From positions 496,001-560,000 of the forward strand of contig NZ_JAJNCZ010000004.1 in the NCBI RefSeq assembly GCF_021026345.1: a stretch of 64,000 nucleotides of DNA, given 5' to 3'. The notes under the pieces are model-generated. The model ran no database searches. It had not been told where the DNA came from and worked only from the letters and a program-made list of their open reading frames with translations. This document shows positions 39,934 through 52,466 of the stretch, piece by piece (the first letter of the stretch is position 1; every line of letters begins with the position of its first letter). The stretch is from Rhizobium sp. GN54. GTDB lineage: Bacteria; Pseudomonadota; Alphaproteobacteria; Rhizobiales; Rhizobiaceae. Made by a program: the position numbers and the translations under genes.

Positions 39934-40935
<1,002 letters not shown>

Positions 40936-40946
40936 CGGGAATTTCG

Positions 40947-41720
40947 ATGAAGAGACTGGAAGGAAAGAGCGCGCTGATCACCGGTTCGGCGCGCGGGATC
41001 GGCCGCGCTTTCGCCGAGGCCTATGTGCGCGAGGGCGCGCGGGTGGCGATCGCCGACATCAATATCGAGCGGGCACGGCAGACCGCAAGCGAGATCGGCG
41101 CCGCTGCCTATGCCGTGCAGATGGACGTCACCAGCCAGCAGTCGATCGACGATGCGGTCGGCGCCTGCGTGAGCGAGGCCGGCGGCATCGACATCCTGGT
41201 CAACAACGCGGCGCTGTTCGACCTGGCGCCGATCGTCGAGATCAGCCGCGAGAGCTACGACCGGCTATTCTCGATCAACGTCTCCGGCACGCTGTTCACC
41301 ATGCAGGCGGTCGCCAAGCAGATGATCGCGCAGGGGCGGGGCGGCAAGATCATCAACATGGCGAGCCAGGCCGGCCGGCGCGGCGAGGCGCTCGTTGCCG
41401 TCTACTGCGCCACCAAGGCGGCCGTCATCAGCCTGACCCAGTCGGCCGGCCTGAACCTGATCTCGCACGGCATCAACGTCAATGCGATCGCCCCCGGCGT
41501 CGTCGACGGTGAGCACTGGGACGGCGTCGACGCGCTCTTCGCCAAGTATGAGAACCGGCCACGCGGCGAGAAGAAGAAGCTGGTCGGCGAGGCCGTGCCG
41601 TTCGGTCGGATGGGGACGGCGGCGGACCTGACCGGCATGGCCGTCTTCCTGGCTTCGCCCGAGAGCGACTACGTCGTTGCGCAGACCTACAATGTGGACG
41701 GCGGCAACTGGATGAGCTGA
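40947..41720 (+). CDS. smoS: Sorbitol dehydrogenase SmoS (short-chain dehydrogenase)
   Basis: A 257-residue NAD-dependent dehydrogenase that oxidises sorbitol to fructose. The cofactor site is TGSARGIGRA (residues 12-21), and the catalytic triad is Ser140, Tyr153 and Lys157 in YCATK. The length equals the rhizobial SmoS. I chose the ATG at 40947 (MKRLEGKSALITG) by family match, over one at 40932 that overlaps the smoK stop. Confidence 0.92.
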   Translation: MKRLEGKSALITGSARGIGRAFAEAYVREGARVAIADINIERARQTASEIGAAAYAVQMDVTSQQSIDDAVGACVSEAGGIDILVNNAALFDLAPIVEISRESYDRLFSINVSGTLFTMQAVAKQMIAQGRGGKIINMASQAGRRGEALVAVYCATKAAVISLTQSAGLNLISHGINVNAIAPGVVDGEHWDGVDALFAKYENRPRGEKKKLVGEAVPFGRMGTAADLTGMAVFLASPESDYVVAQTYNVDGGNWMS

Positions 41721-41862
41721 CAAGGCCGTGCCGCCTTTGCCGCGGCTGGCGACGTGATCGATGAGAGCCGGCGGCCGCGGATGGCGGGCACCGGCGGAGA
41801 CAGGCTTGCGCCCAGTGCCCCGGATGCGGGCCGGGCCCGCGCGTGACCGGAAGGAAACGACC

Positions 41863-43347
41863 ATGACCACCAAACTCTCGCTGGACAATCTCGAAACGGT
41901 GAAGAACACCGCGGGCGTGCCCTCCTATCCGCGCTCGGCCCTGAAGGCGGGCATCGTCCACTTCGGTGTCGGCAACTTCCACCGTGCGCACCAGGCGGTC
42001 TATCTCGACGACCTGTTCAATGCCGGCCGCGATCATGACTGGGCCATCATCGGCGCCGGCGTGCTTCCCTCCGACGAGGCGATGCGGGCCAAGCTCGAAG
42101 GCCAGGACTTCCTGACGACGGTGGTCGAACAGGACAACAACCGCACCGGCGCGCATGTGACCGGGGCGATGATCGACTACCTCAAGCCCGGCGACGTCGC
42201 AGCCGTCGTCGCCCAGCTTTCCGATCCCGCCATCCGCATCGTCTCGCTGACGATCACCGAAGGCGGCTACTTCATCGATCCGGCCTCGGGGGTCTTCAAC
42301 CCCGCCCATCCGGCGATCGCCGCCGACGGCGAGAAGCCGGACGATCCCAAGACCGTGTTCGGCCTCATCCTCGCTGGGCTGAAGGCGCGCCGGGACAAGG
42401 GCATCGCTCCCTTCACCATCATGTCCTGCGACAACATTCCCGGCAACGGCGAGGTCACCCACGCCGCCGTTTCCGGCCTCGCGCGGCTCTCCGATCTGGA
42501 CTTCGCAGACTGGATCGACGCCAATGTGGCTTTTCCGAATGGAATGGTGGACCGGATCACGCCGGCGACCGGGCCGCGCGAGATCGGGATCGTCGCCGAC
42601 GAATACGGCATCGACGACCAGTGGCCGGTGTTCTGCGAGGAATTCAAGCAGTGGGTGCTGGAGGACAAGTTCCCGCAGGGACGGCCGGCGCTGGAAACGG
42701 TGGGCGTGCAGTTCGTGCCCGACGTCGCGCCCTACGAGCACATGAAGATCCGCATTCTCAATGGCGGCCATGCGGCGATCGCCTATCCAGCGGCCCTGCT
42801 CGACATCCACTTCGTCCACGAGGCGATGGAGGACGACGACATCCGCGCCTTCCTCGCCAAGCTGGAGAAGGAGGAGATCATCCCGGTGATCCCGCCGGTG
42901 CCGGACACCGATCTCGGCGATTACTTCAAGCTGATCGAGAAGCGCTTCTCCAACCCGAAGATCGGCGACACCATTCCGCGGCTCGCGCAGGACGGCTCCA
43001 ACCGCCAGCCGAAATTCATCCTTCCCTCGACAGCCGACCGGCTGCAGCGCGGCGAGGACGTCATCGGCCTGTCGCTGGTCTCGGCGCTATGGTGCCGCTA
43101 TTTCGCCGGCACGTCGGACAGCGGCAAGGCGATCGTCTTCAACGATGCAAATGCCGAGCGGCTGCAGGCGGCGGCGTTGAAGGCCAAGGACGACCCGGCC
43201 GCCTTCCTTGCGCTGTCCGACATCTTCGGCGAGGTTGCGGCCTCGGAACTGTTCCGGCGGCGATTCGCCAGGGCGCTTTCGAGCCTGTGGGAGAAGGGGA
43301 CGCGCCAGACGCTGCGGCTCTATCTCGACGACAAGCTCGCGGACTGA
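41863..43347 (+). CDS. mtlK: Mannitol 2-dehydrogenase MtlK
   Basis: A 494-residue long-chain polyol dehydrogenase that oxidises mannitol (and arabitol) to the ketose. It shows the NAD site GIVHFGVGNFHRAHQAVYLDD, DNIPGNGE and the active-site run MKIRILNGGHAAIAYPA, where Lys, Asn and His are the catalytic residues. The start follows GGAAGGAAACG. It works with SmoS: sorbitol and mannitol both enter as fructose. Confidence 0.94.
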   Translation: MTTKLSLDNLETVKNTAGVPSYPRSALKAGIVHFGVGNFHRAHQAVYLDDLFNAGRDHDWAIIGAGVLPSDEAMRAKLEGQDFLTTVVEQDNNRTGAHVTGAMIDYLKPGDVAAVVAQLSDPAIRIVSLTITEGGYFIDPASGVFNPAHPAIAADGEKPDDPKTVFGLILAGLKARRDKGIAPFTIMSCDNIPGNGEVTHAAVSGLARLSDLDFADWIDANVAFPNGMVDRITPATGPREIGIVADEYGIDDQWPVFCEEFKQWVLEDKFPQGRPALETVGVQFVPDVAPYEHMKIRILNGGHAAIAYPAALLDIHFVHEAMEDDDIRAFLAKLEKEEIIPVIPPVPDTDLGDYFKLIEKRFSNPKIGDTIPRLAQDGSNRQPKFILPSTADRLQRGEDVIGLSLVSALWCRYFAGTSDSGKAIVFNDANAERLQAAALKAKDDPAAFLALSDIFGEVAASELFRRRFARALSSLWEKGTRQTLRLYLDDKLAD

Positions 43348-43404
43348 GGCCGCGCAAGCGCAACGGCACGCCGCATCCGCGGCCGGAACTGGGTATGTGA
43401 GGCG

Positions 43405-44091
43405 ATGGCGGCAGGTCCGATCGAACTGGTGATCTTCGATTGCGACGGCGTACTCGTCGACAGCGAACCGATCTCGCTCGCCGTTCTCGTCGACGCGCTC
43501 GACGTGGCCGGCGTCAGCATGGGCGCCGACGAGGCGGCGGAGCGCTTCCTCGGCAAGAGCCTGAAGACCATGTCGGAGATCCTGCACGACGAATACGGCC
43601 TGGCGATCGACGATCACTTTCTCGAAGGCATGCGCAAGACGCTCTATGCCCGCTTCCGCGAGGAATTGCAGCCGATCGAGAACATCCGCCAGGTGGTCGA
43701 GGCGCTGCCGGTCTCGTGCTGCGTCGCCTCCTCCAGCCAGCCGGAGCGCATCCGCTTGTCGCTGTCGGTGACGGGGCTGATCGACTGTTTCGAGCCGAAC
43801 ATCTTTTCCGCCAGCATGGTGCGCAACGGAAAGCCGGCGCCGGACCTGTTCCTGCATGCGAGCGAGGTCATGGGCGTCTCGCCCGATGCCTGCGTCGTGA
43901 TCGAGGACAGCCCCGCCGGGGTGATGGCGGCGCAGGCCGCCGGCATGCGGGTCTGCGCGTTTGCCGGAGGCTCGCATGCGCGAACCGGCCGGCATCGTGC
44001 AGCCCTCTCCGTCCTGAAGCCCGACGTGCTGTTTGACGACATGCGGGAATTGCTCCAGTTTGTCGGCAACGCACAGCCGACGGGAACATGA
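43405..44091 (+). CDS. HAD-superfamily hydrolase (phosphoglycolate phosphatase/beta-PGM type)
   Basis: A 228-residue HAD subfamily IA protein. The catalytic motif is FDCDGVLVDSEP (nucleophile Asp12, acid Asp14), motif II is VASSSQ, the Lys is in NGKPAPDLFL and motif IV is CVVIEDSPAG. As the seventh gene of the polyol operon it probably removes phosphate from a sugar phosphate made in the pathway; the substrate is not readable. Confidence 0.88.
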   Translation: MAAGPIELVIFDCDGVLVDSEPISLAVLVDALDVAGVSMGADEAAERFLGKSLKTMSEILHDEYGLAIDDHFLEGMRKTLYARFREELQPIENIRQVVEALPVSCCVASSSQPERIRLSLSVTGLIDCFEPNIFSASMVRNGKPAPDLFLHASEVMGVSPDACVVIEDSPAGVMAAQAAGMRVCAFAGGSHARTGRHRAALSVLKPDVLFDDMRELLQFVGNAQPTGT

Positions 44092-44095
44092 TTTC

Positions 44096-45679
44096 ATGCG
44101 CGATCTGATCGTTGCGGTCGACATCGGGACCGGAAGCGCCCGTGCCGGCGTCTTCGATCGGGCGGGCACCCTGCTCGCGCGCGCCGAGCGGCCGATCGCG
44201 ATGAACCGGCCGCGGGAAAACGTCGCCGAGCACGATTCGGAAGATATCTGGAGCGCGGTCTGCGGGGCAGTGCGGGCGGCCTGCGCGGCGGCGGGTGCGG
44301 CTGCCGGACGTGTGGCGGCCCTCGGCTTCGACGCGACCTGCTCGCTCGTCGTGCGTGACGGTGAGGGCGGCCAGCTCGCGGTCTCGGGCGGCAAGGACCC
44401 GCGCTGGGACACGATCGTCTGGCTCGATCACCGCGCGCTAAAAGAGGCTGATGTCTGCACGGAAACGCAGCATCCGGTGCTCGACCATTCCGGCAAGGTC
44501 ATGTCGCCGGAAATGCAGATGCCGAAACTGATGTGGCTGAAGCGCCACCAGCCGGAACAGTGGGCCCGCGCCGGCTATTTCTTCGACCTCGCCGACTTCA
44601 TGACCTGGAAGGCGACCGGTTCGACCGGGCGCTCGCGCTGCACCATCACCTCGAAATGGAACTACCTGGCGCATGAGCGGGAGGGCTGGCGGGAGGACTT
44701 CCTGGACCGGATCGGGCTGGCGGACCTGCGCAGGCGCGGGACGCTGCCGGACGAGACGATACCGGTCGGCGCACCGATCGGACGGTTGAGCGAACGGGCC
44801 GCGACCGAACTTGGGCTCGACATGGAATGCATCGTCGGTGCCGGCATGATCGACGCCTATGCCGGGGCGCTCGGGGTGCTCGGCCAGTTTGCCGGCGAAC
44901 CGCGTGCGCTCGAGCGCCAGCTGGCGTTGATCGGCGGCACCTCCAGCTGCATCGTCGCCTTTTCGCGCGAGAAGAAATTCGGTTTCGGCATGTGGGGTCC
45001 CTACTACGAGGCCGTCCTGCCGGGGCACTGGCTGGTGGAGGGCGGCCAGTCGGTGACCGGCGGGCTGCTCGACCATATCGTCAGGCTCCACAGCGCCGGC
45101 GGCGATCCGGTGCCGACCACCCACCAGCGGATCGTCAGGCGCATCTACGAACTGCGGGCCATGGAGGGCGACGACTTCGCCGCACGGCTGCACGTCCTGC
45201 CGGACTTCCACGGCAATCGCTCGCCGCTCGCCGATCCGCACGGGCTCGGCGTCATCAGCGGCCTGTCGCTGGATGCGACCTTCGACAGCCTGTGCCGGCT
45301 CTACTGGAAGACCTGCGTCGCCGTCGTGCTCGGCATCCGTCGCGTCATCGACACGCTCGGCGAATGCGGCTATGCGCTGGAGACCCTGCACGTGACCGGC
45401 GGCCATCTCCACAATCCGCTGCTGATGGAACTCTACCGCGACGTGACCGGCTACCGGGTCGTGGTGCCGAAGACGAGCGATTCAGTACTGCTCGGAACGG
45501 CGATGGCGGCATCGGTCGCAGGCGGCCTCCATCCGGATATCGCCACAGCCGGCAAGGCCATGCATCCGGGCGGGGAGGAGCTTCCTTCCGATCCGGGCAG
45601 GCGCGCGCTTTACGATCGTGAATATCGCCGTTTCCTGGCGCTCTACCGCCACCGTGACGAGCTGGAAAAAATCCTCTGA
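44096..45679 (+). CDS. FGGY-family carbohydrate kinase (ribulokinase/ribitol kinase type)
   Basis: A 527-residue sugar kinase. The N-terminal phosphate-binding loop is AVDIGTGSARAGVF. The second half has MIDAYAGALGVLG (catalytic-site Asp region) and LIGGTSSCIVAFS, and the FGGY signature zone is around LHVTGGHLHNPLLMELYRDV. The long form (over 500 residues) is that of pentulose kinases. In a sorbitol/mannitol/arabitol operon it may phosphorylate D-xylulose or D-ribulose from arabitol. It starts 4 bases after the HAD stop and ends the operon. Confidence 0.88.
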   Translation: MRDLIVAVDIGTGSARAGVFDRAGTLLARAERPIAMNRPRENVAEHDSEDIWSAVCGAVRAACAAAGAAAGRVAALGFDATCSLVVRDGEGGQLAVSGGKDPRWDTIVWLDHRALKEADVCTETQHPVLDHSGKVMSPEMQMPKLMWLKRHQPEQWARAGYFFDLADFMTWKATGSTGRSRCTITSKWNYLAHEREGWREDFLDRIGLADLRRRGTLPDETIPVGAPIGRLSERAATELGLDMECIVGAGMIDAYAGALGVLGQFAGEPRALERQLALIGGTSSCIVAFSREKKFGFGMWGPYYEAVLPGHWLVEGGQSVTGGLLDHIVRLHSAGGDPVPTTHQRIVRRIYELRAMEGDDFAARLHVLPDFHGNRSPLADPHGLGVISGLSLDATFDSLCRLYWKTCVAVVLGIRRVIDTLGECGYALETLHVTGGHLHNPLLMELYRDVTGYRVVVPKTSDSVLLGTAMAASVAGGLHPDIATAGKAMHPGGEELPSDPGRRALYDREYRRFLALYRHRDELEKIL

Positions 45680-45706
45680 GGTGCCCAAAAAAATTTTGAA
45701 CGCGGC

Positions 45707-45731
45707 GGAACCTATTTGCTGCGTCGGTGTT
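45707..45731 (+). promoter_or_regulatory. Putative EcfG-dependent promoter of a small RNA
   Basis: GGAAC (45707-45711), 16 bases, TGTT (45728-45731). The consensus of alphaproteobacterial EcfG sigma factors is GGAAC-N16-CGTT, so one base differs. No plus-strand gene follows, but a terminator does, about 130 bases on. Confidence 0.6.
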
Positions 45732-45737
45732 TCTACA

Positions 45738-45868
45738 CTGTCACCGGCCAGCGCATTCCCCCAGTGCGAGGCCCTCGAAGCCGGTGAACACAGCCGCTCG
45801 CCGTGTCCCCTCCGGCCAGCGGGAATTCAGGCAGCCAGCGCCCCCCCGCGCTGGCTGCTTTATTTTTG
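45738..45868 (+). ncRNA. Candidate general-stress-response small RNA (GsrN-like by position and C-rich loops)
   Basis: Between the kinase stop and phyR an EcfG-type promoter is followed, without a credible coding frame, by a structured stretch and a strong terminator. CACCGGC (45742-45748) pairs with GCCGGTG (45780-45786); inside it CGCA/TGCG would expose the loop TTCCCCCAG. A second C-rich segment (CCCCTCC) follows, and the terminator loop is six C. Exposed C-rich loops bind Shine-Dalgarno-like G-rich targets in GsrN of Caulobacter and in other alphaproteobacterial sRNAs. The ends are predicted, and no expression evidence is available. Alternatively the region is only the 3' end of the polyol operon. 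Confidence 0.5.
45831..45868 (+). terminator. Rho-independent terminator after the candidate small RNA
   Basis: GCAGCCAGCG (45831-45840) and CGCTGGCTGC (45849-45858) form a perfect 10-bp stem, extended by one more pair, with a loop of six C and then TTTATTTTT. It could also terminate the polyol operon, whose last stop lies 150 bases upstream. Confidence 0.85.
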
Positions 45869-45901
45869 CCGCCGGCGGGTCCCATGATGACAATCGGAGA
45901 C

Positions 45902-45931
45902 GAAAAAAAGGACGAGGCGCAGGCCTCGTCC
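45902..45931 (-). terminator. Rho-independent terminator of phyR
   Basis: On the minus strand GGACGAGGC and GCCTCGTCC (45923-45931 and 45910-45918) form a perfect 9-bp stem with a 4-base loop, followed by seven T. It lies 35 bases beyond the phyR stop. Confidence 0.85.
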
Positions 45932-45965
45932 CCAGGTGGTGCAGAAACTGGATCCGGTGAAACGT

Positions 45966-46757
45966 TCAGGCGGCGACGGCGTGAACCGGGCTGGTCATCA
46001 GCGCCTGGTTGATGAGGACCTTGACGGTGTCCGGATGGAAGGGCTTGCTGACCAGGTAGGCCGGTTCGGGGCGTTCGCCGGTCAAGAGCTTTTCCGGATA
46101 GGCGGTGATGAAGATGACGGGCAGTTCGGTGCGGGCGAGGATGGCCGTGACGGCGTCGATGCCGGAGCTGCCGTCGGCAAGCTTGACGTCGGCGAGGATG
46201 AGGCCGGGCCTGGTCTCGAGCCACAGCTTCTCGGCTTCGGCCTGCGTGCATGCGATGCCGGTCACGCGATGGCCCATGTCGCTGACCATGTCGGCCAGGT
46301 CCATGGCGATCAGCGGCTCGTCCTCGATGATCATGATGCCGACCTCGGTTTGCGCGGCAATCTCGCGGAAGGCCGTGTCGAGCAGGGCGCGGACCTCGGC
46401 CTCGTCGGTCTCGAGGATCTCGGCCACATGCGCGGTCGGGAAATTCTCCATCGTCACCAGCAGGAGGGCCTGGCGGACGCGGGGCGGAACCGCGCCGAGA
46501 TCGACCGGCGACGGGGCGCCGGGGCGCAGCGAGACGGTGTCGCTGACGGAAATGGGCAGCGACGCGATCATCCGCGACAGCAGCCGGAAAAGGCGCACGC
46601 GGTCGTCGTCGCCCTCGGCGAATGCGGCGGGATCCATCAGGATCGCTTCGAGCGTGGCGGCGACATAGGCGTCACCCGAGGCCTGCGTGCCCGTAAGCGC
46701 GCGGGCATAGCGGCGCAGGTAGGGCAGATGAGGCGTTAGGCGGTCGGAAATCGGCAT
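45966..46757 (-). CDS. phyR: PhyR, general stress response anti-anti-sigma response regulator
   Basis: A 263-residue protein with the unique PhyR layout: an N-terminal sigma-like domain (about residues 5-135, without DNA-binding ability) and a C-terminal receiver (about 138-258) with Asp190 in LILADVKLADG as phosphoacceptor and the Lys in YLVSKPFHPD. When phosphorylated, the sigma-like part binds NepR and frees EcfG. The start at 46757 (MPISDRLTPHLPYLRRYARAL) follows AGGGGAG; the longer frame to 46814 crosses the promoter. It is called RsiB1 in Sinorhizobium. Confidence 0.95.
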   Translation of the reverse strand: MPISDRLTPHLPYLRRYARALTGTQASGDAYVAATLEAILMDPAAFAEGDDDRVRLFRLLSRMIASLPISVSDTVSLRPGAPSPVDLGAVPPRVRQALLLVTMENFPTAHVAEILETDEAEVRALLDTAFREIAAQTEVGIMIIEDEPLIAMDLADMVSDMGHRVTGIACTQAEAEKLWLETRPGLILADVKLADGSSGIDAVTAILARTELPVIFITAYPEKLLTGERPEPAYLVSKPFHPDTVKVLINQALMTSPVHAVAA

Positions 46758-46805
46758 CGTAAGCTCCCCTGTGATGCGGACGGCTGCATTGTCGGTCAAC
46801 GGGAA

Positions 46806-46830
46806 AACGAACATGATGAATTTTGGTTCC
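46806..46830 (-). promoter_or_regulatory. EcfG-dependent promoter of phyR
   Basis: On the minus strand: GGAAC (46830-46826), 16 bases, CGTT (46809-46806). This is an exact match to GGAAC-N16-CGTT and lies 49 bases upstream of the phyR start. Confidence 0.85.
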
Positions 46831-46837
46831 GCGCCCC

Positions 46838-46862
46838 GGAACCTTTTTCGGACGGGCGCATT
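46838..46862 (+). promoter_or_regulatory. Probable EcfG-dependent promoter of nepR-ecfG
   Basis: GGAAC (46838-46842), 16 bases, CATT (46859-46862); the -10 differs from CGTT by one base. It faces nepR-ecfG, back to back with the phyR promoter, so EcfG may activate its own operon. Confidence 0.5.
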
Positions 46863-46945
46863 CCTGTGTCGAATTCCCTTGAGGGGGACGATGGAAGCAG
46901 TCGAAAGTCAGAGATGTGAAACAACAGCAAAGACAAGAATATCCA

Positions 46946-47131
46946 ATGACGACAGAGGGGGTTGACGGGCAGATCGCCCACAGGCTTCGCTCGTTCTATC
47001 TCTCCGTCCAGGAAGAGCCGATCCCGGAGAAATTCCTCGAACTCCTCGAAAAGCTCGACCTTGCGGAGCAGCGGGGGAAGAGTACGACCGAGCAGGACGG
47101 AGACATGCAGCTGGGGAGCCAAGATCGGTGA
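46946..47131 (+). CDS. nepR: NepR, anti-sigma factor of EcfG
   Basis: A 61-residue protein. The core IAHRLRSFYLSVQEEPIPEKFLELLEKL is the NepR signature (quoted from its two conserved parts, LRSFYLSV and EEPIPEKFLELL). NepR holds EcfG inactive until phosphorylated PhyR takes it away. I prefer the ATG at 46946 for its family length; a GTG at 46916 would add ten Q/R-rich residues. The stop overlaps the ecfG start by 4 bases. It is called RsiA1 in Sinorhizobium. Confidence 0.9.
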   Translation: MTTEGVDGQIAHRLRSFYLSVQEEPIPEKFLELLEKLDLAEQRGKSTTEQDGDMQLGSQDR

Positions 47132-47688
47132 GCGCACAGGAACCGGCAAACACTTTCAAGCGCGAACTGCTCTCGATCCTTCCCAGCCTGAGGGCCTTCG
47201 CCATTTCGCTCGTCGGTCGCCATCACGAGGCCGACGATCTGGTGCAGGACACCATCATGAAGGCCTGGGCCAAGCAGGACCAGTTCGAGATGGGCACGAA
47301 TATGAAGGCGTGGCTGTTCACGATCCTTCGCAACGAACTCTACAGCAAGCTGCGCAAGCGCGGCCGCGAAGTGCAGGACAGCGACGGCCTGCTGACGGCC
47401 AATCTCGCCCAGCATCCCGCGCAGTACGGCAAGCTCGACATGCAGGATTTCCAGCGCGCGCTGGAACAACTCCCGGATGAGCAAAGGGAGGCGATTATCC
47501 TTGTGGGTGCGTCCGGTTTCTCCTATGAAGAGGCCGCCGAAATCAGCGGTTGTGCCCTTGGGACGATCAAGAGCCGCGTCAACCGTGCAAGGCAGAAACT
47601 GCAGGAGATCCTGCAGATCACGAATGAAGGCGAGTTCGGTCCGGATGCGGTGTCGGCACCGCTGACGTCGCGAGCCTTCATGACATAA
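47128..47688 (+). CDS. ecfG: EcfG-type sigma factor of the general stress response (RpoE2)
   Basis: A 186-residue ECF sigma factor. Region 2 (about residues 12-80) has RHHEADDLVQDTIMKAWAKQ, and region 4 (about 115-165) has LPDEQREAIILVGASGFSYEEAAEISG followed by the recognition helix GTIKSRVNRAR. It starts with GTG inside the nepR stop, so the antagonist and the sigma factor are translated together. It should recognise the GGAAC-N16-CGTT promoters seen at 46806, 50480 and, less exactly, 45707 and 46838. Confidence 0.94.
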   Translation: MSAQEPANTFKRELLSILPSLRAFAISLVGRHHEADDLVQDTIMKAWAKQDQFEMGTNMKAWLFTILRNELYSKLRKRGREVQDSDGLLTANLAQHPAQYGKLDMQDFQRALEQLPDEQREAIILVGASGFSYEEAAEISGCALGTIKSRVNRARQKLQEILQITNEGEFGPDAVSAPLTSRAFMT

Positions 47689-47811
47689 GGGGACGACCGC
47701 GCCTGTCCTGGGCCGGCAGGCGAGGGGCAGGTTTCGGAGAACAATCATGCAGGTTCTCAGCATGACGCAAAGGCACGCAAGGGCACCGTCTGCGTGGCCG
47801 GCAGGTTCGCG

Positions 47812-49323
47812 ATGAACCGCCGGCCGTCGTCCGTGCCGGTGGCCGTTGCCACTGCCCTGACCGCCCCGGCGCGGCTGGAGGCAGTGCGGGCAACGTTGCC
47901 TGCCTATGCCGGGCCGGATGCGGACTTCACGGATATCGCCGATCTTGCGGCGGGCCTTTTTTCCGCGCCGATCGCGCTCGTCACCCTGATCGGCGACACG
48001 ACCCAATGGTATCTCGCCCGCAAGGGTCTGGGCGAGGTCAGTTCCAGCGCGGCCGATACCTTCTGTGCCCGCCTTCTTACGGAGGGAGGCGCCCCCATCA
48101 TCGTTCCCGACGCGCGGGCCGACAGCCGGTTCTCCGACCTGCCGAGCGTCACCGGCGCGCCGCATGTGCGCTTTTATGCCGGGGCCCCGATCCTCCATGC
48201 CGGCCAGCCGATCGGCAGCGTCTGCGTGCTGGACGTCGAGGCCCGCGCCGGCGCCAGCGACGACGCGCTGCTGCATCTGCAACAGCTTGCCAAGCTTGCG
48301 GGCTCGCTGCTGCTCCTCAAGGAGGAGGCGCGGCGCAGGGCGCTGGCCAATGCGGCGATCGCGCGCGAGGAACAGCGGCATGCCGCAGCTCTCAACGCCG
48401 CCAATGTCGGGAGCTGGCTGTGGGACGTCAAGGCCGGGACGGTGATCGGCAATGCACCGCTCCTGCGCATGCTGGACCTCAAGCGCGGCGAGAACCTGAC
48501 GGCGCGCCAGATCTTCTCGGCGATCCACGCCGCCGACAGGGCCGCCGCCATCGGCAAGCTCCGCAACGCGCTGGAAACCGGCGGCGAATATGACGGCATG
48601 TTCCGGGCGGGCTCGACCGGACGCTGGCTGCTGGGCCGCGGGCGCGTGCATGAATGGGACCCGGACGGAACGCCTTCCATGTTCCTCGGCATCACGCTGG
48701 ACGTGACCGAGGGCCAGCTCGCCTCGGAGCGGATGCGGCTGTTGCTGCGCGAGCTCAACCACCGGGTCAAGAACACGCTCGCCATGCTGCAGTCGCTGGC
48801 GCGGCAGACGCTGCGGCAGACCAAGGATCCGGAGGCCTTCATGGCGGCTTTCGCCGGGCGGTTGCAATCGATTTCCGAGGCGCACGGGCTTCTCAGCGAC
48901 CAGGAGTGGGGCATGATCTCGCTGACCGCCCTGCTGCAGGCGCAGATCCGCCCCTTCGTCGACGATTTCCAGAGGCAGGTCGAGATCCACAAGGACGAGG
49001 TCCGGCTCGGTCCCGACCAGTCGATCGGACTGGGGCTCGTCCTGCACGAACTCGCCAGCAATGCGCGCAGATACGGCGCGCTGTCCGTCCCGGGCGGCAG
49101 GCTGGTGATCACCGCACGCGTCATGCAGGAAGACGGCCAGTCGGTGCTGCACATGACGTGGCACGAAATGGGCGGGCCGCATGTCGAGCCGCCGAAGGCC
49201 AAGGGCTTCGGGCTCATCCTGATCGAGCGAAGCCTCGACAAGGTGCTCGGCAGCGACGTGCACCTCGAATTCCTGCCGAGCGGGTTGACCGCGATCATCA
49301 GGCTTCCGCTCGACCAGGTGTGA
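47812..49323 (+). CDS. HWE-family sensor histidine kinase with GAF and PAS domains
   Basis: A 503-residue soluble kinase. A GAF domain (about 35-170; DTFCARLLTEGG, FYAGAPILHAGQPIGSVCVLD) is followed by a PAS-like segment (about 190-300) and a HWE/HisKA_2 dimerisation domain with RELNHRVKNTLAMLQSLA (His317). The ATPase domain has LVLHELASNARRYGAL (N box) and GFGLILIERSL. Located just after ecfG, it corresponds by position to RsiC of Sinorhizobium and is likely to act on PhyR. The ATG at 47812 is preferred to a GTG at 47794. Confidence 0.88.
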   Translation: MNRRPSSVPVAVATALTAPARLEAVRATLPAYAGPDADFTDIADLAAGLFSAPIALVTLIGDTTQWYLARKGLGEVSSSAADTFCARLLTEGGAPIIVPDARADSRFSDLPSVTGAPHVRFYAGAPILHAGQPIGSVCVLDVEARAGASDDALLHLQQLAKLAGSLLLLKEEARRRALANAAIAREEQRHAAALNAANVGSWLWDVKAGTVIGNAPLLRMLDLKRGENLTARQIFSAIHAADRAAAIGKLRNALETGGEYDGMFRAGSTGRWLLGRGRVHEWDPDGTPSMFLGITLDVTEGQLASERMRLLLRELNHRVKNTLAMLQSLARQTLRQTKDPEAFMAAFAGRLQSISEAHGLLSDQEWGMISLTALLQAQIRPFVDDFQRQVEIHKDEVRLGPDQSIGLGLVLHELASNARRYGALSVPGGRLVITARVMQEDGQSVLHMTWHEMGGPHVEPPKAKGFGLILIERSLDKVLGSDVHLEFLPSGLTAIIRLPLDQV

Positions 49324-49369
49324 GAGGCGTCGCTGGCGCCTCAATGGCTTCACGCTTCAAGGCTTCAAC

Positions 49370-49430
49370 GGACAGACCGGCCGACCCGCGATGGCGGGCC
49401 GGCCGGTCTGTCCGGGTGTTTCAAGTTTTC
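49370..49430 (+). terminator. Strong terminator hairpin after the histidine kinase
   Basis: GGACAGACCGGCCG (49370-49383) and CGGCCGGTCTGTCC (49400-49413) form a perfect 14-bp stem, with CCCGC/GCGGG inside the loop, followed by GGGTGTTTC. It lies between convergent genes and may serve both. Confidence 0.7.
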
Positions 49431-49439
49431 CCGGAAAAA

Positions 49440-49874
49440 TCAGTCGTCGTCGCGCCGGCGGCGACCCGGGCGTAGGAACAGCGCCAGCGCGACGCCGAGG
49501 GCTGCGGTCGCAAGCGGATTGCGGGCCGCACTGCCGGCCGCGATCGCCGCAAGCTGCGTGCGCGCGCGCATCTGCTCGCGCCGCCTGCGGCGAAGCCTGG
49601 CGTCGCGGTTGTTCAGATAGAGGAGCACCGCGATCAGGACGAGCGCCAGGGTGGCAACCCCGCCGGCGAGCCCGAGCAAAGCGGGAACCGTGCCGTAGCG
49701 CTCGGCGAGGCTGACCGAAAGGGCCGCGACTGCCAGCACATAGGCGGTCAGCAGGAGCAGGCCGGCAATGCCGGCGAAGATGGCATTGCGCTTCGAGCGC
49801 TGCAGGGTTTCCTCTATCCTGTCCTCGACCCGGAAGACCATGTTCTGGGCGAGGGCGGTTACGATCGACAACAT
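49440..49874 (-). CDS. Small membrane protein, YqjE/Phage_holin_3_6 (DUF1469)-like
   Basis: A 144-residue protein with a charged N-terminus (VFRVEDRIEETLQRSKRNA), two membrane segments (about 30-52 and 63-87), then a very basic stretch NNRDARLRRRRREQ and an alanine-rich end. The layout is that of YqjE-like proteins, which in E. coli are encoded after a DUF883 protein (YqjD), as here. CAGGAG precedes the start. The family call is from layout, not clear motifs. Confidence 0.65.
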   Translation of the reverse strand: MLSIVTALAQNMVFRVEDRIEETLQRSKRNAIFAGIAGLLLLTAYVLAVAALSVSLAERYGTVPALLGLAGGVATLALVLIAVLLYLNNRDARLRRRRREQMRARTQLAAIAAGSAARNPLATAALGVALALFLRPGRRRRDDD

Positions 49875-50036
49875 GAATTCCCGCTCCTGGATGTGATTAC
49901 GTCGCGCCTTGCCCGGCCTGCCGGCGACGCATGTGGTAGCCGTCCTGTGCGAGCCGCCGCGATCAGGGCCGCGGCTTGCGTTTCAGGGCGGCGATGGCCG
50001 CATGCGCGCGTCAGGCAAGGTCCCCAAAGGCGGATG

Positions 50037-50426
50037 TCAGCGCCGCAGGATGGCGGCGATGACGAAGCCGGCGACGGCGGCGGCGCCGAGGGTGGCGAAG
50101 GGATGCTCCTTGACGGTGCGGCGCACCTCGCGGCCGGTGTCCCTGTAGCGCGCCGTCAGTTCGGCCAGGATGTCCTCGCCGTTGGCGATCAGTTCGTCGA
50201 GGCCGTCGGTCGCCTCCGCGCGGGCGTGCCTCGCGTTCTCGCGGGCCTTGCTGCGGAACATCGAGAAGCGGTCGCGGGCGTCTTCCGCCCCGTCGGCCAC
50301 GTCCTGAGCGACGAGCTTGGCCAGCGTGGAAATCTGGTCGCGCAGTTCGGCGATCTGGTCCTCGATCGTTTCTGCTGCCTCGGAAACCGTGCGGTCCTTG
50401 CCGCGGGAGAACATTCCGGATGCCAT
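50037..50426 (-). CDS. DUF883 (ElaB/YqjD-like) protein
   Basis: A 129-residue protein. A long amphipathic helical region (about residues 15-100) ends in VKEHPFATLGAAAVAGFVIAAILRR, the C-terminal membrane anchor with small-residue repeats that defines DUF883. In E. coli ElaB and YqjD bind ribosomes at the membrane in stationary phase. AAGGAGGG gives an excellent SD for the ATG at 50424-50426. A perfect EcfG promoter lies upstream, so it belongs to the general stress regulon. Confidence 0.87.
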   Translation of the reverse strand: MASGMFSRGKDRTVSEAAETIEDQIAELRDQISTLAKLVAQDVADGAEDARDRFSMFRSKARENARHARAEATDGLDELIANGEDILAELTARYRDTGREVRRTVKEHPFATLGAAAVAGFVIAAILRR

Positions 50427-50479
50427 TACACCCTCCTTTGCCTGTTCGAACGCAAAACTAAAGTTGTGCCGGCACAACA

Positions 50480-50504
50480 ACGTCGACGGGCTGGAAAGGT
50501 TCCG
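50480..50504 (-). promoter_or_regulatory. EcfG-dependent promoter of the DUF883 gene
   Basis: On the minus strand: GGAAC (50504-50500), 16 bases, CGTT (50483-50480). It matches the consensus exactly and lies 54 bases upstream of the start. Confidence 0.85.
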
Positions 50505-50527
50505 CTCCAACGCGGTGAGAGGGGGTC

Positions 50528-51316
50528 CTACAGAACAGCCGTCTGCGGCAGAATGAACGGAGTTCCCGCGGCAGGCAAGCCACTGACGCGCATGCGGCAG
50601 CCGAAGACCTCCTCCATCGCCGCGTCGGTGAGCACCTCCGCCGGCGCCCCCGCGGCGGCGACCTTTCCCCGCTTCATCATCACCATGTGATCGGCATACA
50701 TCGCCGTCAGGTTGAGGTCGTGCATCACGGCGATCACCCCGCCGCCGCGCGTGCAGTAGTCCCTGGCGAGCTGCATGATGGTCAGCTGGTGGCGGATGTC
50801 GAGGCTGGAGACGGGCTCGTCGAGCATCAGGAAGCAGGGCATGCCGTTCAGGACCGGGTCCCAGATCTGCGTCAGCACGCGGGCAAGCTGGACGCGCTGC
50901 TGCTCGCCGCCGGAGAGCTCCTGGTAGAAGCGGCCCTCGAAACCCTCCAGGTCGACGGCGGCAAGCGCCTTGGCGGCGATCGCCTGCGCGTGGGCCGCGT
51001 CGTTGTTCAGCCCGGTCGACAATCCCATGCGCACGATCTCGCGAACGGTGAAGGGAAAGGCGATCGTGGTCGCCTGCGGCAGCACGGCCCGCCGGGTGGC
51101 GAGCTGCCAGGGCTCGAGCGCGCGGACGTCGTCGCCGTTGATGGTCAGTTCGCCGGTGCTGGCGATCTCGCCGGAGATGGCCTTCATCGTCGTGGTCTTG
51201 CCGCTGCCGTTCGGGCCGACGATCGCCGTCACCTGACCGGCCTTTGCCGTGAGCGATAGCGTATCGACGATCAGCTTTCCGGAAAGCCGGACGGAGAGGT
51301 TCTTGGCGCAGATCAT
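50528..51316 (-). CDS. hmuV: Haem ABC transporter ATPase HmuV
   Basis: A 262-residue ATPase. Walker A GPNGSGKTT lies near residues 34-42, the signature is LSGGEQQRVQLARVL and Walker B is FLMLDEPVSSLDIRHQ, which is longer than usual before the Asp, as in HmuV proteins. It ends the hmuSTUV run and energises haem import from the periplasm. Confidence 0.93.
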   Translation of the reverse strand: MICAKNLSVRLSGKLIVDTLSLTAKAGQVTAIVGPNGSGKTTTMKAISGEIASTGELTINGDDVRALEPWQLATRRAVLPQATTIAFPFTVREIVRMGLSTGLNNDAAHAQAIAAKALAAVDLEGFEGRFYQELSGGEQQRVQLARVLTQIWDPVLNGMPCFLMLDEPVSSLDIRHQLTIMQLARDYCTRGGGVIAVMHDLNLTAMYADHMVMMKRGKVAAAGAPAEVLTDAAMEEVFGCRMRVSGLPAAGTPFILPQTAVL

Positions 51317-51350
51317 GTCGGTCCCGAATGCGTTTGGTCGCCCGCCGCCG

Positions 51351-52466
51351 TCACAGGCCGGTGGACGTGCGGTGCCGCAGCAGCACCCAGAGGAAGAACG
51401 GCGCGCCCGCGAGCGCGGTGACGATGCCGATCGGCAGCTCGGCAGGTGCCACTATGGTGCGGGCGAACATGTCCGCGGCCAGAAGCAGGATGCCACCGAG
51501 AAGGGCTGCGGCGGGCAGCAGGTAGCGGTGGTCGGGGCCGATGACCATGCGCAGGATATGCGGAACGACAATGCCGACGAAGGCGATGCCGCCGCTGACG
51601 GCCACCGAGGCGCCGATCGCCGCGGCCACGCTGACGATGGCGATGTTCTTCAGCTTCTGGACCTTGACGCCCATGTGGAAGGCGGTGGCCTCGCCGAGCG
51701 TGATCGCGTTCAGCCCGCGGGCGAGAAACGGCAGAACCGCGAGCGAGAGCAGGATCACCGGGCCGGCGGTCAGCACCTTCGGCCAGGTCGAGCCGGCGAG
51801 CGAGCCGAGGCTCCAGAAGGTGACGTCGCGAAGCTGGCGGTCGTCGGCGACGTAGATCAACACGCCCGTGACGGCGCTGGCGAGTGCCGCGATCGCCAGA
51901 CCGGCCAACAGCATGGTGGCGACCGAAGTCTGGCCGTGCAGGGTGGCGATGCGGTAGAGAAAGAGCGTTGCGAGCAGGCCGCCGACGAAGGCTGCAAGCG
52001 GCAGGGCGAAGGCGCCGACAAGGCCGAGAAGGGCCGCCGGCAGCGCCCCGCCGAGCACGATCATCAGCACCGCGCCGAGTGCGGCGCCGGAGGAAATGCC
52101 GATCAGGCCGGGATCGGCCAGCGGGTTGCGGAACAAGCCCTGCATCACCGCGCCCGAGACTGCCAGTGCTGCGCCGATCAGGAGCCCGAGCAGGGCGCGG
52201 GGCAGGCGGATGTCGATGACGATGATGCGGTCGCGCTGGCTGAGAACCGAGGACGGTTCGCCGCTGACGAGCGACAGGGCGACATCGACCACCGAGGCGT
52301 CCGAGGCGCCCGTCGCCGTCGACAGCAACAGGACGACGACCGTCAGGACGGCGAGCGCGGCGATGACGAGCCGCGCAAGGGCGGTCCGGTCGCCCCCGGC
52401 GGCAAGGCGCAGGCGGTGCGCCGTCATGCCCTGCATTCCGGTCTTTGCGGCATCACTGAGAGACAT
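51351..52466 (-). CDS. hmuU: Haem ABC transporter permease HmuU
   Basis: A 371-residue FecCD-type permease with about ten membrane segments. Family marks are DIRLPRALLGLLIGAALAVSG, MQGLFRNPLADPGLIGIS and GIAFVGIVVPHILRM. The start at 52466 (MSLSDAAKTG) lies inside the end of hmuT (14-base overlap); an ATG at 52490 would lengthen the overlap. Confidence 0.93.
   Translation of the reverse strand: MSLSDAAKTGMQGMTAHRLRLAAGGDRTALARLVIAALAVLTVVVLLLSTATGASDASVVDVALSLVSGEPSSVLSQRDRIIVIDIRLPRALLGLLIGAALAVSGAVMQGLFRNPLADPGLIGISSGAALGAVLMIVLGGALPAALLGLVGAFALPLAAFVGGLLATLFLYRIATLHGQTSVATMLLAGLAIAALASAVTGVLIYVADDRQLRDVTFWSLGSLAGSTWPKVLTAGPVILLSLAVLPFLARGLNAITLGEATAFHMGVKVQKLKNIAIVSVAAAIGASVAVSGGIAFVGIVVPHILRMVIGPDHRYLLPAAALLGGILLLAADMFARTIVAPAELPIGIVTALAGAPFFLWVLLRHRTSTGL

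Follow-up and report, generated by a model that had tools for sequence, protein, structure and literature searches.

The window analysed here is a 64,000-nucleotide stretch of the 5.57-Mb genome of Rhizobium sp. GN54, and the element of interest within it is a predicted small RNA (sRNA) of about 131 nt, encoded beside the phyR gene of the general stress response (GSR) locus. By Pfam assignment, its neighbours on one side are an FGGY kinase, a HAD hydrolase and a mannitol dehydrogenase, and on the other side PhyR, NepR, an ECF sigma factor and an HWE kinase, which bears out the placement between a polyol operon and phyR that had been proposed from an earlier inspection of the letters (the sequence-only reading). 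The RNA is probably a sigma-EcfG-transcribed, trans-acting, base-pairing sRNA of the alphaproteobacterial GSR, for which promoter, structure, conservation and synteny can be read from sequence comparisons. The element consists of the following features, its start being placed by promoter spacing and its hairpins by a predicted fold.

45707 to 45731, + strand: EcfG-type promoter (GGAAC at 45707-45711, N17, GTT at 45729-45731)
45737 to 45868, + strand: predicted sRNA, about 131 nt
45741 to 45787, + strand: hairpin 1, with an outer stem of 45741-45749 paired with 45771 and 45780-45787
45752-45757 with 45763-45768, + strand: inner stem of hairpin 1, closing a C5 loop (45758-45762)
45768 to 45779, + strand: C-rich strip GAGGCCCUCGAA, lying between the two stems of hairpin 1 and largely unpaired in the predicted fold
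45794 to 45822, + strand: hairpin 2, with the loop UCCCCU (45806-45811)
45829 to 45868, + strand: intrinsic terminator (stem 45829-45860 of 13 pairs, C6 loop, T-rich tail)

Promoter and terminator enclose 97 bases of non-coding sequence. The promoter had been described as GGAAC-N16-TGTT, which is the same site; the exposed C-rich loops that had been claimed are present in the predicted fold; and the terminator has the C6 loop and T-rich tail attributed to it, with a stem of 13 pairs that is longer than the 10 bp given.

Promoter, fold and covariation

The motif GGAAC-N16..18-GTT is not enriched in the window (4 sites against 3.34 expected, a number reached by 39 of 100 shuffles), so the evidence for the promoter rests on its conservation. 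Two covariance models of the RNA were built, R1 from 9 sequences and R2 from 45; R2 does not contain the promoter. It matched 59 Rhizobiaceae genomes, 44 of them represented in its training rows and 15 outside. The sequence GGAAC-N17-(G/A)TT, with the spacing found in the window, precedes all 15 out-of-training matches (8 and 7, in two checks), and it is present in 30 of 30 loci examined among the R2 family matches. In a further comparison, GGAAC was found within 60 nt of the 28 best of 52 matches (27 with N17 and one with N18) against a background of 9.6% (422 of 4376 stretches). Besides the window itself, these 28 comprise 26 loci that score at least 85 bits and one locus (L124) at 29.9 bits; the other 24 matches, at 21 bits or less and mostly on the opposite strands of the same places, were left out of the promoter check. 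The rows of alignments A2 and A3 were picked by a regular expression requiring GGAAC, and the count of 28 is by itself circular because most of these matches are such training rows; the fair promoter count is therefore that of the 15 out-of-training matches. In a comparison with eight relatives, GGAAC is identical in all eight and the -10 element GTT in seven.

The predicted RNA folds more stably than expected (z = -4.45, with none of 200 shuffles equally stable), and three terminator-like sites occur in 45400-46100 where 0.8 are expected. When 45 family sequences were folded singly, hairpin 1 was found in 43, hairpin 2 in 42, the terminator in 45, and all three in 40, by loose criteria and without a shuffled control. 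Within the C-rich strip, the GAG-CCCTC columns are invariant among 18 near-clade sequences, and the loop of hairpin 2 is predicted to be able to pair with G-runs resembling Shine-Dalgarno sequences.

Base pairs changed on both sides were counted in three alignments: A2 (near clade, 9 rows) has 8 such pairs with 11 doubly changed cells, 94.7% of cells being paired; A4 (13 rows from four other genera) has 8 pairs with 16 cells (97.9% paired); and all 45 rows, in which the inner stem of hairpin 1 and the terminator were counted, have 6 pairs with 24 cells (98.8% paired), all of these being counts for which the structures were derived from the same alignments and which relatedness inflates. None of 500 shuffles reaches the double-change count in any of the three alignments, and the count falls when the partners are shifted by 1-3 columns; further pair types are no more numerous than in shuffles (303 of 500 reach the observed number in A2, and 245 of 500 in A4). 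Hairpin 1 has pairs changed on both sides in all three alignments. The stems of hairpin 2 vary by clade (CCGC/GCGG, CCACG/CGTGG, CAACTCAC/GTGAGTTG) while its C-rich loop stays in place; it was not counted across clades because MAFFT does not align it between them.

The hairpins and the promoter thus proved to be conserved at this locus in a covariance search among Rhizobiaceae. Identity to the eight relatives is 64-92% for the RNA, 16-66% for the spacer to phyR and 50-80% for third codon positions of neighbouring genes. The RNA is more conserved than the spacer in all eight, to a degree similar to the adjoining coding ends (kinase 70-91%, phyR 72-90%); in one relative (G017) its identity of 64% is below that of the coding ends (70 and 78%).

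Distribution and gene neighbourhood

A DNA search matched 9 of 101 genomes and, in addition, a plasmid-collection record of Shinella sp. PSBB067 (L014, NZ_CP069303.1), which at 4.6 Mb looks chromosomal. One of the nine matches (G013) was set aside as due to chance, lying inside a gene that appears dihydroorotase-like from a reading of its open reading frame (ORF). Among 394 Rhizobiaceae genomes, R1 matched 48 and R2 matched 59, the latter in 14 of 109 genera with one match each, the lowest at 80.8 bits (E ≤ 0.001). The remaining 335 genomes had no R2 match under strict filters, and weak members may be missed because the large samples were scored with such filters. Each of the 15 out-of-training matches is situated downstream of phyR and on the other strand, as established from coordinates for 12 and from fetched loci for 3; one of them, G139 (L039), carries the same RNA sequence as a training row and was dropped from A3. 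With the same strict filters, R2 matched only the window's own genome among 240 of the class, a sample in which the presence of Caulobacteraceae was not established, and 4 of 249 genomes of the order. Three of these are the window's own genome and two others of its family; the fourth, G693, belongs to a different family, and its match looks like chance, as it scores 39.2 bits, has no GGAAC in the stretch inspected and has no phyR in its 3.1-kb locus.

Among the R1 matches, eight weak ones in seven genomes (G414, G245, G419, G320 twice, G332, G191 and G113) lie away from phyR, with none in the roughly 5 kb retrieved, and are unmatched by R2; two others (L111 and L120, at 18.6 and 19.4 bits) do not have the motifs in their letters. 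These were rejected as chance matches. L097 (23.9 bits with R1, 14.4 with R2) carries GGAAC and was left out of A3. A match at L124:2574-2707 (+), at phyR, scores 29.9 bits and has GGAAC-N17-GTT; it is possibly a distant family member. A comparison of window positions 40000-52000 with Rfam 15 at E ≤ 5 left the RNA unmatched and gave three weak matches elsewhere; in six loci of relatives there was none at E ≤ 1.

The genes and sites flanking the RNA in the window are these.

44096 to 45679, + strand: FGGY carbohydrate kinase (PF00370, PF02782), with its stop 27 nt before the sRNA promoter
45908 to 45933, - strand: terminator-like site downstream of phyR, separate from the sRNA terminator
45966 to 46757, - strand: phyR (Pfam PhyR_sigma2, PhyR_sigma-like, Response_reg)
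46946 to 47131, + strand: nepR, anti-sigma factor (PF18557)
47128 to 47688, + strand: ecfG, ECF sigma factor (PF04542, PF08281)
47794 to 49323, + strand: HWE histidine kinase with GAF and a weak PAS match (PF07536, PF01590, PF08447)

The site at 45933-45908 agrees with the separate phyR terminator on the other strand that the sequence-only reading had described; the RNA ends 97 nt from the phyR stop. The phyR of Mycoplana azooxidifex (NZ_JACIEE010000011.1) is 88% identical to that of the window. The true start of phyR is probably the internal ATG at 46757 (MPISDR), since the longest phyR ORF begins (46814) within an EcfG-type site at 46830-46806 (-).

The loci fetched include 60 that were chosen by hand, not at random, among the matches listed; one locus (L128) consists of only 1,460 bases, and another (L113) is a second phyR-type locus of genome G137. 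The FGGY kinase is directly upstream of the RNA in 22 of the 27 fetched loci that have it, and is absent from the fetched few kb of all 34 phyR loci without the sRNA (L128 being shortened). In five of the 27 loci, RNA and promoter are present with no kinase nearby, and in 14 a histidine kinase gene is situated between the RNA and phyR. Sinorhizobium meliloti Ak57 has the gene order of the window (mannitol dehydrogenase, HAD hydrolase, FGGY kinase, sRNA, rsiB1, rsiA1, sigma factor); its RNA, which is outside the training rows, scores 117 bits with R2 and has GGAAC-N17-ATT. The record concerned (L137, CP090106.1), filed as plasmid pSymB, is 3.7 Mb long, carries the GSR locus and looks chromosomal.

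Relation to described RNAs

ReC64 of Rhizobium etli is a sigma-EcfG1-dependent non-coding RNA with an EcfG1 motif, encoded downstream of phyR-tcrY (PMC3892343, Jans et al. 2013). It is 88 nt long, its 5′ end was found at the expected place by rapid amplification of cDNA ends (RACE), its reporter was abolished without ecfG1, and it was activated in Escherichia coli by EcfG1 or EcfG2 (PMC3892343). An additional larger transcript was seen (PMC2881028, Vercruysse et al. 2010), and an increase under salt shock was found by RNA-seq (PMC4167512). ReC64 resembles the predicted sRNA in being a non-coding RNA of the ecfG1-phyR region with its own EcfG consensus promoter, and it is controlled directly by EcfG, is detected in stationary phase and increases on salt shock. 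Its position downstream of a phyR-kinase pair resembles that in the 14 loci with an intervening histidine kinase gene, and differs from that in the window, where RNA and phyR have no kinase gene between them. R2 matches genomes whose gene order is of the ReC64 type; the identification with ReC64 rests on position and promoter. Homology to ReC64 is likely, and the RNA of the window is of a known kind, with likely relatives that have been reported in Rhizobium and Sinorhizobium and in part characterised.

In the predictions of Tien et al. 2018 (PMC5869019), GsrN-like RNAs stand close to the GSR loci of R. etli, S. meliloti, A. radiobacter, B. abortus and others. They have an exposed cytosine-rich 5′ loop (G-rich in the legend), with a small hairpin and a stem that involves the 5′ terminus on its flanks, an anatomy much like that of the RNA described here. 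S. meliloti is on their list, and S. meliloti Ak57 carries the present family. Compared by description, those predictions differ in being based on position and on single folds, with no covariation model or family boundary. GsrN of Caulobacter crescentus acts through a C-rich 5′ loop (PMC5869019); it is like the predicted sRNA in having a promoter for the GSR sigma factor and a C-rich loop, which in the window belongs to a predicted fold and is the presumed contact. Unlike it, GsrN is about 106 nt long, is encoded elsewhere than at the GSR locus in C. crescentus and targets the katG leader (PMC5869019), whereas the sRNA of the window has two C-rich hairpins and no relation to GsrN was detected by R2 in the class sample. 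Features of GsrN itself are its processing to a stable 5′ isoform and the stabilisation of its full length by Hfq. For S. meliloti, RpoE2-dependent sRNAs are listed by Schlueter et al. 2013 (PMC3616915); in the parts of PMC2573895, PMC3927594 and PMC2873474 that were covered, no sRNA matching by flanking genes was found.

What the sequence-only reading proposed, an EcfG-promoted sRNA with C-rich loops and its own promoter and terminator, has the support of the sequence evidence, and the RNA is conserved at this locus in relatives. The suggestion of an undescribed regulator of this lineage is not borne out: ReC64 (PMC3892343) and the predicted GsrN-like RNAs (PMC5869019) occupy the same niche, and the family spans 14 sampled genera. 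The likeness to GsrN that it pointed out applies to the likely mode of action, and a katG role finds no support. New here are a covariation-backed family with no Rfam match, its range among the Rhizobiaceae that were sampled, the link between it and the polyol kinase gene, and evidence that speaks against a common target in katG; no earlier report of a Rhizobiaceae-wide covariance family was found in the open-licence literature, exclusive of supplements. Scattered predictions (ReC64 and the GsrN-like RNAs) thereby come together as one defined family, open to testing, that has a structure model and a list of sampled genera.

Mechanism, alternatives and targets

Under stress, PhyR would release EcfG from NepR and EcfG would start transcription at about 45737, giving a transcript of about 131 nt that ends near 45868. 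Besides its terminator and the C-rich strip, the folded RNA would have two hairpins, both with loops rich in C. These loops are likely contacts with G-rich stretches of mRNA, probably Shine-Dalgarno regions, and pairing would change the translation of these mRNAs, probably with Hfq. Stress-dependent expression is suggested by the likely homologue ReC64, and the binding of G-rich mRNA is suggested by the example of GsrN; base pairing, Hfq and targets are presumed.

The RNA might instead be the 3′ untranslated end of the polyol operon, with the terminator serving the kinase transcript and the short RNA arising as read-through or as a processed 3′ fragment. The kinase stop is 27 nt from the promoter, the scanned 45400-46100 has just one other terminator-like site on that strand ahead of 45829, which overlaps the promoter itself, and the kinase accompanies the RNA in 22 of 27 loci and phyR without the RNA in none of 34. 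This origin has little probability given the promoter at all 15 out-of-training matches, the five loci that keep RNA and promoter with no kinase nearby, and the start of the likely homologue ReC64 at an EcfG promoter by 5′ RACE (PMC3892343); operon read-through and an own-promoter origin could coexist. Action in cis, by antisense pairing or by collision of transcription with convergent phyR, is very remote: the RNA points at phyR from downstream with 97 nt between its end and the phyR stop, but two facing terminator-like sites separate the transcripts and a histidine kinase gene intervenes in 14 of 27 loci. Still less credible is a transcript encoding a small protein. Open frames cross the region mechanically, but the predicted RNA of the window contains no ATG, single-base insertions and deletions occur among the aligned RNAs, and the 45 RNAs have no common closed ORF, the longest differing in place and letters and 15 having none (closed frames were counted, and frames running off the end left out).

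That the RNA is a true orthologue of Caulobacter GsrN by descent, activating katG, is unlikely. Tien et al. (PMC5869019) grouped Rhizobiaceae RNAs with GsrN, but R2 matched only the window's own genome in the class sample under the filters and sampling described above, and 12 of 44 carriers, among them this genome, lack katG (TIGR00198), with no excess of pairing in 30 katG leaders of the others. The genome of the window holds two PF00199 catalases and no katG. Because the RNA persists in genomes without katG, the Caulobacter katG story does not seem to explain its retention, and a katG role or shared katG target is not supported. A tentative possibility is that the family is specific to Rhizobiaceae and arose separately from GsrN, its two C-rich loops and strip forming a broad anti-Shine-Dalgarno device by which EcfG dampens the translation of many mRNAs and does not activate katG; if so, a post-transcriptional arm would have evolved convergently on the same stress switch.

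The favoured interpretation of an EcfG-transcribed, trans-acting sRNA has several observations weighing against it. ReC64 was assigned overlapping SigA and RpoH promoters, not an EcfG promoter, in PMC4167512, and its 88 nt differ from the roughly 131 nt predicted here (an extra, larger ReC64 band being on record). Hairpin 2 covaries little within clades (A2 has a single doubly changed pair there, A4 has none), and in 5 of the 45 single-sequence folds one of the two hairpins is missing under the loose, uncontrolled criterion. No target was found among katG and phyR leaders. In a rough test, the katG leaders had no excess of pairing (1 of 30 at p ≤ 0.05, the 30 leaders coming from 32 katG genomes and being taken as the 110 nt before the profile match, with start codons not determined). 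Pairing with the phyR Shine-Dalgarno region is weak, reaching p ≤ 0.05 in 3 of 16 leaders, none of them in the window's genus (a 17th start was not found); the shuffles in both tests keep base composition only. The three phyR leaders are suggestive of self-regulation through phyR. The targets of the sRNA are a tractable question in strains such as S. meliloti.

In the nepR leader (46880-46965), a G-run that resembles a ribosome-binding site, before a short ORF with an ATG at about 46891, could pair with hairpin 2; it is not conserved beyond the window and close relatives. A short distance past phyR, and on its strand, EcfG-type sites are found in many of the phyR loci that lack the sRNA (among L093-L130); they may be promoters of kinases or of unrelated sRNAs. 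In the window, a further GGAAC-N17-GTT at 50479-50503 (-) is situated at the start of a minus-strand ORF (50037-50510) encoding a small protein, which we take to be YqjD/DUF883-like and which is a plausible further target of EcfG.
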